From positions 1 to 53,131 of the forward strand of contig MEWP01000072.1 in the NCBI GenBank assembly GCA_001775395.1: DNA of 53,131 bases. Reading direction: 5' to 3'. This document shows positions 7,271 to 48,377 of this stretch, one piece after another. Each line of letters opens with the position of its first letter. The stretch's first letter is position 1. The notes beneath the pieces are model-generated. The model made no database searches, had not been told where the DNA came from, and saw nothing but the letters and a program-made list of their open reading frames with translations. The position numbers and the translations under genes were made by a program. Source of the DNA: a candidate division Zixibacteria bacterium RBG_16_53_22 (lineage in GTDB: Bacteria > Zixibacteria > MSB-5A5 > UBA10806).

Positions 7271-8503
7271 TCATTTTATTTTCTTTAATGAACCGTCGTC
7301 TAATATATCTATCAAATGACCCAGTTTATCGCGCTTGGTTTCCAGATAACGAGCGTTATGCTGGTTGGGTGGAATCTGGAGCGGCACCCGTCCCGTGACC
7401 TTGAGATTATACCCCTCCAGCCCGACAATCTTCTTGGGGTTGTTCGTAATTAGCCGGATCGTGGTCAGGCCGAGGTCCGCCAAAATCTGCGCCCCGATTC
7501 CATAGTCGCGCAGGTCGGCGGGGAAACCCAGTTCCACGTTGGCCTCGACCGTATCGCGCCCCTCGTCCTGAAGCTTGTAAGCCAGAATCTTGTTGGCCAG
7601 CCCGATTCCCCGTCCCTCCTGCCTCATATAGAGGACGACACCGAGCCGCTCGTTTTCGATCAACTCCATGGCCGCGGCCAATTGGTCTCCGCAATCGCAG
7701 CGGCACGAGCCAAAAACGTCGCCTGTAAGGCAGGACGAGTGAACTCGCACCATGACATCCCGCTTGCCGCTGACCTCGCCCTTTTCAATTGCCAGATGGT
7801 GATGATCGTCGACCGAGCTGCGATACAGGTGTAGTTTGAAATCGCCGTGGCGGGTCGGAAAATCGACCGAGACCACCCGCTCGACCAGCTTTTCGTTTAT
7901 GCGGCGATATTTGATAAGCTCCTCGACACTGACGATTGGCAAGTCATGGTCCTTGGCAAGTTGCAGAAGCTTCGAGCGGCGCGCCATGCTCCCGTCGTCG
8001 TCGAGAATTTCGCAAAGCACGCCATACGGTTCCAGCCCGGCCAGCCGGCAAAGATCGACCGTGGCCTCGGTGTGGCCGGCCCGTGTCAAGACCCCACCCG
8101 GCATGGCCTGGATCGGGAAGATGTGGCCCGGGCGCCCCAGGTCTTCCGGCTTGGTGGCTTGATCAGCCAGGGCCTTGATGGTGGCGGCGCGATCGTGGGC
8201 CGAGATGCCGGTGGTGGTGCCCTTGACAGCGTCGACCGAAACCGTGAAGCGCGTGCCGTGAAGAGCCGTATTGACCTGCACCATCGGGGCGAGCTCCAGC
8301 CGCTGAAGCCGTTCGAACGGCATCGGAACACATATCAACCCTCGCCCGTACTTGGTCAGGAAATTGACCTTCTCCGATGTTATAAACTGCGCGGCCATGA
8401 CCAGGTCCCCCTCATTTTCGCGACCCTCGTCATCGACCACGATTATCATATTGCCGGCCTTGATGGCTTCGATTGCCCGGTCGACTTTGGAAAATTCAGA
8501 CAT
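7271..8503 (-). CDS. ribBA: Bifunctional 3,4-dihydroxy-2-butanone-4-phosphate synthase / GTP cyclohydrolase II
   Basis: A 410-residue two-domain enzyme. The RibB half (about 1-200) has DDEGRENEGD (24-33) binding Mg and ribulose-5-phosphate. The RibA half (about 205-405) has zinc-binding Cys258, Cys269 and Cys271 (SSCLTGD...CRCDCGD) and QEGRGIGL. It feeds both branches of riboflavin synthesis. I start it at the ATG at 8503 (MSEFSKVD). The frame stays open upstream to 8596, but that extension is translated REP repeat, not protein. AAGGAG lies 14 bases before the ATG inside a duplicated copy of the ribE tail, a long spacing (see the repeat at 8507-8786). Confidence 0.96.
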   Translation of the reverse strand: MSEFSKVDRAIEAIKAGNMIIVVDDEGRENEGDLVMAAQFITSEKVNFLTKYGRGLICVPMPFERLQRLELAPMVQVNTALHGTRFTVSVDAVKGTTTGISAHDRAATIKALADQATKPEDLGRPGHIFPIQAMPGGVLTRAGHTEATVDLCRLAGLEPYGVLCEILDDDGSMARRSKLLQLAKDHDLPIVSVEELIKYRRINEKLVERVVSVDFPTRHGDFKLHLYRSSVDDHHHLAIEKGEVSGKRDVMVRVHSSCLTGDVFGSCRCDCGDQLAAAMELIENERLGVVLYMRQEGRGIGLANKILAYKLQDEGRDTVEANVELGFPADLRDYGIGAQILADLGLTTIRLITNNPKKIVGLEGYNLKVTGRVPLQIPPNQHNARYLETKRDKLGHLIDILDDGSLKKIK

Positions 8504-8506
8504 AAT

Positions 8507-8786
8507 CAGAATCCATGCTCCTTCAAGAACTCGATCGTTATACATGGTGGTGTCGGGTCGCCTGACCCGACACGAAAGGCTGTCGGCTGAGGCCACCTCA
8601 TTTGAGCCAAATGGCCGACAGCACCTCTGGTTTCAGAATCCATGCTCCTTCAAGAACTCGATCGTTATACATGGTGGTGTCGGGTCGCCTGACCCGACAC
8701 GAAAGGCTGTCGGCTGAGGCCACCTCATTTGAGCCAAATGGCCGACAGCACCTCTGGTTTCAGAATCCATGCTCCTTCAAGAACTC
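8507..8786. repeat. Two identical 127-bp tandem units with REP-like palindromes; third partial copy is the ribE tail
   Basis: Units 8507-8633 and 8634-8760 are identical base for base. The first 26 bases of each match the true 3' end of ribE (8761-8786), after which ribE diverges. So three copies of the ribE tail are separated by two copies of a 101-bp insert. Each insert holds a perfect palindrome with 10-bp arms (8550-8559 with 8564-8573, repeated 127 bp on) and a 9-bp inverted pair (8579-8587 with 8614-8622). The insert belongs to the palindrome family seen at 10690, 48166 and 52654. The original junction appears to have been TGA-TT-ATG. Confidence 0.95.
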
Positions 8787-9401
8787 AGTAGTTATCCTGT
8801 TCTCATGTTTATCATCCCGCGATATCAATTGATTTATGTATTTCGCGATAATGTCAAATTCCAGGTTGACTGTATCCCCCGCCTTGCGATACTTGAAAAT
8901 TGTGTTCTCAAGCGTGTGCGGTATCACCGCCACCTGGAATGATGACGGCTCCACTCTAACGATAGTCAGGCTGACACCGTCGACAGCAACAGAACCCTTC
9001 TCGATCAGAAATCTCTCATATTCGCGCGGATAGTCGAACGTGTAAAGAGTGCTGCCGTCCCGCGGCGTGATATTCGTGATTCGAGAGATGCAATCGACAT
9101 GCCCCTGGACAATGTGCCCATGCAGGAGATCGGCCGGGGAAAGCGGGGTTTCGAGATTGACCAGCGAGCCTCGCACAAGCTCGTCCAGATTGGTGCGCGA
9201 GAGCGTCTCGGCAATCGCCTCGACCCGAAAATAATCCGGGCCGCGAGAGACCACAGTCTGGCAGGCGCCGTTGATCGCAACCGAGGCGCCAATGTCGAGC
9301 CTGGGCGTGACCTTGTGGGCCTCAACCTCGATTTGCAGGTTCGTGCCCTGCCGGGTCAGGGATTTGATCTTCCCGATTTCGCTTATTATCCCCGTGAACA
9401 T
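8760..9401 (-). CDS. ribE: Riboflavin synthase, alpha chain
   Basis: A 213-residue enzyme with two lumazine-binding repeats, beginning MFTGIISEIGKI and, at about residue 95, the second-repeat region LLHGHIVQGHVD. It dismutates two lumazine molecules to riboflavin and the ribityl-pyrimidine. It starts one base after the ribD stop. Its last 26 bases are the sequence present twice more downstream in the REP-containing tandem repeat, yet the true gene end (FLKEHGF, TGA at 8760) is intact, so function should be unaffected. Confidence 0.96.
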   Translation of the reverse strand: MFTGIISEIGKIKSLTRQGTNLQIEVEAHKVTPRLDIGASVAINGACQTVVSRGPDYFRVEAIAETLSRTNLDELVRGSLVNLETPLSPADLLHGHIVQGHVDCISRITNITPRDGSTLYTFDYPREYERFLIEKGSVAVDGVSLTIVRVEPSSFQVAVIPHTLENTIFKYRKAGDTVNLEFDIIAKYINQLISRDDKHENRITTEFLKEHGF

Positions 9402-10713: not shown

Positions 10714-10729
10714 CACCGTGTGGTTAGGG

Positions 10730-10896
10730 TTGTCTTCTCCCATCCGGACTGTTACCGTCGGCACCGGGATTTCACCGGTTCAAGTCGGACCCCGCACTCG
10801 TCCCGCATCCGCCTTTGGCGAAGCGGGGACTCGGCAGGGGTAAACGTCGCGGGCTGTCACCGCCGGTCGAGGATTTTCGCCTCACCCCGAAGACAA
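10730..10896 (-). promoter_or_regulatory. FMN riboswitch (RFN element)
   Basis: Reading the minus strand, the closing stem TTGTCTTC/GAAGACAA encloses the conserved RFN blocks: a GGGGTGAGGCGAAAATCC entry, GACCGGCGGT, AGCCCGCGA, then GGTGAAATCCCGGTGCCGAC and AGTCCGGATGGGAGAAGA. The order and spacing are those of the FMN aptamer. It starts at the predicted transcription start and controls ribD-ribE-ribBA-ribH. FMN binding should favour the terminator at 10648-10672. Confidence 0.96.
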
Positions 10897-10899
10897 TTC

Positions 10900-47921: not shown

Positions 47922-48377
47922 CGCCTCCAAAATATTAGACCCCGGAGCAGGGTCAAGGTTTAATAGATACCGGACAGCCAACTAATTGCATTCAAAGAGC
48001 TTAGACAACAAGTTCATATCTCCCCGCATCAGGCAGGGGGAAACAGGCGACCTGACCGCCATAGTTCGCGCGGCGTCAGGGACCCTTTCCTGACACCCGT
48101 ACGTCTGTTGATCGAAGATTCCCGTAGGTCAATACCCCCGCAGTCTTGACTTTATTCTTAGAAATGCGTCAGGTCTAAGGACCTGACGCCACCTGGTATG
48201 TTGCGTCGAGAGAAGCCACGCATGCTCGGCAGCAGGGGTAAGCCGCCCGACATCACGGTGAATCACAGAGTCGAAACCGCCCCGCATTAAGCAGGGGCAA
48301 GCAAGGGCTTCGACCTGCGACTGGCTCATTTTCTGACGCAGATAAGTTTAGTATTCGGGAATGACGGCTAATTATCG
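47922..48377. repeat. REP-rich spacer between the sigma operon and mreB
   Basis: A perfect palindrome GCGTCAGGTC-TAAG-GACCTGACGC lies at 48166-48189, followed by CACC. An imperfect relative lies at 48072-48097. Two copies of a CCCCGCAT(C/T)A(G/A)GCAGGGG motif lie near 48018 and 48281. No coding frame is supported. The palindromes match those in the riboflavin operon. Confidence 0.75.

Follow-up and report, generated by a model that had tools for sequence, protein, structure and literature searches.

In this genome, the junction between ribE and ribBA most probably holds a lineage-specific array of two tandem REP dimers, of a REPIN/BIME-like kind, within a rib operon controlled by an FMN riboswitch (probability about 0.8). 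The array is a real rearrangement of a known type, and it is probably recent.

Structure of the ribE-ribBA junction

The window, the whole 53,131-nucleotide stretch of DNA that was analyzed, carries the operon on its minus strand in the order FMN riboswitch, ribD, ribE, insert, ribBA, ribH, nusB. The riboswitch lies 5' of ribD at the head of the operon (10728-10898, minus strand) and, at 95.9 bits, exceeds the gathering score of 66.2. Both genes bordering the insert, ribE (riboflavin synthase, 8760-9401, minus strand) and ribBA (bifunctional DHBP synthase/GTP cyclohydrolase II, 7271-8503, minus strand), are intact and score above the curated NCBIfam cut-offs, in agreement with an earlier note on this DNA that had described ribE as unbroken. 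The identities of these two genes come from NCBIfam; the names ribD, ribH and nusB were read from the sequences of those genes.

A repeat search of the window showed that a 127-nt unit at 8506-8632 is duplicated at 8633-8759 with 100% identity, and that the first 36 nt of the unit recur a third time at 8760-8795 with 92% identity. The exact stretch of this third tail is 27 nt (TCAGAATCCATGCTCCTTCAAGAACTC, 8760-8786, minus strand) and is the true, functional ribE 3' end, with homology continuing to 8795 with 3 differences. The repeat unit thus consists of a 27-nt ribE tail and a 100-nt insert. The tail copy adjoining ribBA (8506-8532, minus strand) matches 8760-8786 exactly, and the second copy lies at 8633-8659 (minus strand). 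The two inserts (8533-8632 and 8660-8759, given without strand) are the same, each a REP dimer with about 27 nt of linker and edge sequence. The earlier note's description of two identical inserts bounded by ribE-tail copies is confirmed, with a division of 27 + 100 nt instead of 26 + 101 and the same period. An exact 127-nt tandem copy is not attributable to chance, and no further exact long tandem copy was found in the 53-kb window.

The tail at 8506-8532 bears the stop codon TGA, the AAGGAG motif and the TGA-TT-ATG junction with ribBA, so the original short junction and its AAGGAG are indeed kept before ribBA, as the earlier note had proposed. AAGGAG stands 14 nt 5' of the ribBA ATG and, being inside the tail, is present in all three tails. 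The distance from the ribE stop to the ribBA ATG is now 256 nt; with both units taken out, only 2 nt would lie between them (TGA-TT-ATG).

An assembly artefact, named in the earlier note as an outcome that would overturn its reading, was also considered. In such a case there would be one real unit, and the exact 127-nt repeat would have been created by contig joining. The repeat length equals a common assembler k, since short-read assemblers commonly go up to a k-mer of 127, and the copy number is taken from a draft assembly of 169 contigs with N gaps. However, the window itself contains no N, and terminal overlaps among 85 contig ends were limited to five pairs of 19, 33, 48, 74 and 81 nt, none of them with the 127-nt signature. 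For an artefact, the real distance from tail to tail would also have to match k by coincidence; genuine unequal exchange yields this equality without a further assumption. A joining artefact is therefore unlikely. As a separate observation, another contig (C16, 45.8 kb) begins and ends with the same 81 nt and may be a circular replicon in the bin, either a plasmid or a phage.

The same junction was compared among relatives. ribE is present in 38 of 39, and ribBA lies directly downstream of it in 28 of the 29 loci read. In these 28, the ribE-ribBA gap is mostly below 70 nt (126 and 231 nt in the exceptions), compared with 256 nt here. None of the 29 relatives has the array, this REP dimer or a further tail copy at the end of ribE; the two flagged by a loose motif expression have junctions measuring just 28 and 11 nt. 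The absence of the array and of tail copies, together with the short gaps, indicates that the array arose in this lineage. The comparison suggested by the earlier note thus found neither a single nor a double unit elsewhere, among relatives that are distant: the ribE of the nearest, a member of the same genus, is only 59% identical, so the age of the array cannot be bounded from outside.

Palindrome families and RAYT-like genes

The folding z-score is about -4.7 for RNA and -5.0 for DNA. A known structural RNA was rejected because no Rfam match was obtained at the junction. Folding and a family motif search identified palindrome 1 at 8547-8573 (plus strand) as a GTGG-tagged REP with a 10-bp perfect stem, GTGGTGTCGGGTCGCCTGACCCGACAC; the motif search placed its second copy at 8674-8700 (plus strand). 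At 27 nt, it falls within the 20-40 bp range of REP palindromes and can form a stem-loop. The family pattern GTGGYGTCRGGTC has 49 matches in the 3.86-Mb genome and 0 for a reversed control pattern, which bears out the proposal that the insert is REP-type DNA. Matches also occur in relatives, with 15 in a genome of the same genus (G001) and 7, 10 and 1 in three genomes of the family (G003, G004 and G002, respectively).

Palindrome 1 ends in GTGG, a variant of the GTAG-type terminal tetranucleotide, although GTGG is constant by the design of the search pattern and the tag is thus supportive, not independent, evidence of the REP class. GTGG is already known from REPs of O. terrae and P. fluorescens, and most GTAG-20 elements of O. 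terrae have it in place of GTAG (PMC3733652). In many copies of the GTGG family, the stem is retained despite changes in its bases and in those of the loop (GTCAGGTC...GACCTGAC, GTCGGGTC...GACCCGAC); some copies contain long nested loops and have a total length of 54-63 nt. One further GTGG REP lies in the window at 48180-48192 (minus strand). On another contig (C7:6080-6329, L079), two near-identical 63-nt nested-loop GTGG REPs are 237 nt apart, with different flanks.

Palindrome 2 was located by folding and core search at 8579-8624 and, in its second copy, at 8706-8751 (both minus strand). It is branched in the fold model, with a 9-bp outer stem and inner hairpins. Its core, GGCCANNTGGCTCAAATGAGG, is present about 9 times in the genome, and the core pattern had no exact match in the contigs of other GTDB species. 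The outer arms differ among several copies yet still pair. In the insert dimer, GTGG is outside on one end; on the other, an outer GTGC is found at palindrome 2 in several copies, not in all. The REP and the palindrome 2 core are paired again on two other contigs (C22 and C71), and the dimer is therefore a recurring composite.

The genome contains 10 Y1_Tnp matches. One RAYT-like gene (contig C53, L073:1248-1824) scores 75.5 bits against the model for REP-associated tyrosine transposases, just below the cut-off of 80. Inverted palindromes tagged with GTAG, GTAGGTCGGGGGC...GCCCCCGAC, lie on either side of it, and one of these has a long nested loop. These GTAG palindromes occupy the inner positions, with GTGG REPs only farther out, and no RAYT closely flanked by a GTGG REP was found in the genome. 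On a different contig (C122, L077:1137 and 1472), an inverted GTAGGGACACGGCATGCCGTGTCC pair lies near a Y1_Tnp match and is possibly a second RAYT-type system.

Tandem clusters of REPINs that include flanking sequence occur in Pseudomonas fluorescens SBW25 (PMC3116915), and tandem reiteration of REP dimers together with flanking DNA has been described (PMC3733652). The present array resembles the SBW25 clusters in that near-identical REP doublets are tandemly repeated with flanking sequence. It differs in that the flank is a gene end with a stop codon and a Shine-Dalgarno (SD) sequence, that n dimers are accompanied by n+1 tails, and that the dimer joins two dissimilar palindromes. With GTAG-tagged REPs and their HH dimers (PMC3733652) and with E. 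coli BIME-1 and BIME-2, it shares a palindrome of 20-40 bp, a terminal tetranucleotide and tandem reiteration with flanking DNA; the outside tags of their dimers are matched at its GTGG end and, at the palindrome 2 end, by GTGC in some copies only. Unlike the GTAG REPs, the tag here is GTGG with a CGTCAGGTC/TGTCGGGTC stem, and unlike in both GTAG REPs and BIMEs, the second palindrome is branched and its core is without exact counterpart in other GTDB species contigs. Tandem REP dimers with flanking DNA are thus already described; the n+1 gene-end copies with stop and SD are a neat detail and no new system. The array leaves the understanding of REPs unchanged and is not a new kind of system, but it adds a GTGG REP family to a lineage represented here mostly by draft genomes, and the same genome carries RAYT-like genes.

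History of the array

The most economical route to three tails with two inserts leads from X-tail-Y through X-tail-REP-tail-Y to X-tail-REP-tail-REP-tail-Y. In the first step, a REP dimer would have entered the junction during repair or replication slippage, with about 27-36 nt of the ribE end copied in the process, and the copied tail would have let ribE keep its stop and ribBA its start region. Later, the dimer and one tail would have been doubled, a step for which slippage at the two direct tails, or unequal crossing-over between them, would suffice. An origin of the tail copies elsewhere in the genome was rejected, as no other convincing tail match was found.

The earlier note had taken the junction to show how REP units can enter an operon, a generalization that was not supported. 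Among 77 distinct GTGG REP copies from five related genomes, the ribE-ribBA one alone is flanked by a direct repeat of more than 14 nt. Target copying as a general REP mode was rejected on the basis of the 76 others, at which the long direct repeat that target site duplication would require is missing. IS200/IS605-type enzymes, RAYTs included, are not known to make larger target duplications (PMC2817692). Together, these two points favor a single repair or replication-slip event over the normal insertion mode.

A contribution of the RAYT-like genes to the doubling was also weighed. In this scenario, a RAYT-type HUH nuclease amplified the 127-nt unit as a circle or single-strand intermediate, which was reinserted as a tandem without slippage. 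The genome does have RAYT-like genes, and HUH enzymes act on single strands bounded by hairpins. The unit, however, takes in ordinary ribE sequence outside the palindromes, the other GTGG REPs are not in tandem with their flanks, and the RAYT-like genes lack close GTGG REP neighbors. Such an amplification is very improbable, and slippage or unequal exchange between the tails remains the preferred explanation.

Beyond 27 nt, the tail match runs to 36 nt with its three differences all within four bases (minus strand: GATC in the tail copies, TACT in the ribE-attached tail). If three differences were randomly scattered, the chance of finding them within four of 36 positions would be 0.014, and a single event may account for all three. 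The tail homology probably does extend to 36 nt, although the five matching bases past the mismatch may be chance, at about 1 in 1000 for that offset. The extended tail translates as ITIEFLKEHGF in the copies and ITTEFLKEHGF in ribE, and relatives have I, M or A at the variable residue (LTIDF, LTMDF, LTADF). This is suggestive only, but the tail copies may hold the older form, with the ribE-attached tail altered; ATAACGATCGAG in a ribE with an empty TGA-TT-ATG junction would mark the latter as the altered one.

The clustered tail differences, set against the perfect doubling, make the target copying look older, and the two steps probably differ in age. The proposed succession of insertion with target copying and a recent doubling thus fits the three tails and two inserts, but as two events probably separated in time. 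The junction offers a clear snapshot of REP array growth in an operon, with a probably older target copy bearing three changes and a perfect, recent doubling.

Possible effects on expression

Because of the 256-nt gap, loss of stop-start coupling is expected for ribBA: an untranslated, hairpin-rich spacer would replace the 2-nt stop-start junction and remove the translational coupling of ribBA to ribE. In the ribE-side palindrome 2, the 9-bp stem begins 10 nt past the stop codon of ribE. E. coli REPs less than 16 nt from a stop lower translation, as summarized in PMC12306157. The stem here is inside that range and, by analogy, might slow termination. No intrinsic terminator or new promoter was found in the insert. 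The present effect of the array is most likely modest, and a dedicated function is unnecessary to explain it.

A more active role would follow if the array varied in copy number between cells by tail exchange and so tuned ribBA, with ribH and nusB, relative to ribE. No tail-tail exchange would break either coding region, the doubling is recent since the copies are perfect, and the stem is close enough to the stop for an effect of the E. coli type (PMC12306157). In the fold model, however, the ribBA SD is mostly paired whether there are 0, 1 or 2 units, and unmasking or hiding of the SD by unit number was rejected for lack of a clear change. The layout is also seen in no other REP of the five genomes. 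Copy-number tuning is accordingly improbable. Just as doubtful is a broader model in which the ribE tails would form a self-restoring cassette, where REP dimers would expand and contract without harming ribE or ribBA and act as a copy-number expression switch in an essential operon.

At the ribBA side of the array, the REP edge (8501-8545, minus strand) gives an ATG in frame with ribBA (MYNDRVLEGAWILI-MSEF), from which a longer, SD-less ribBA could possibly be made.
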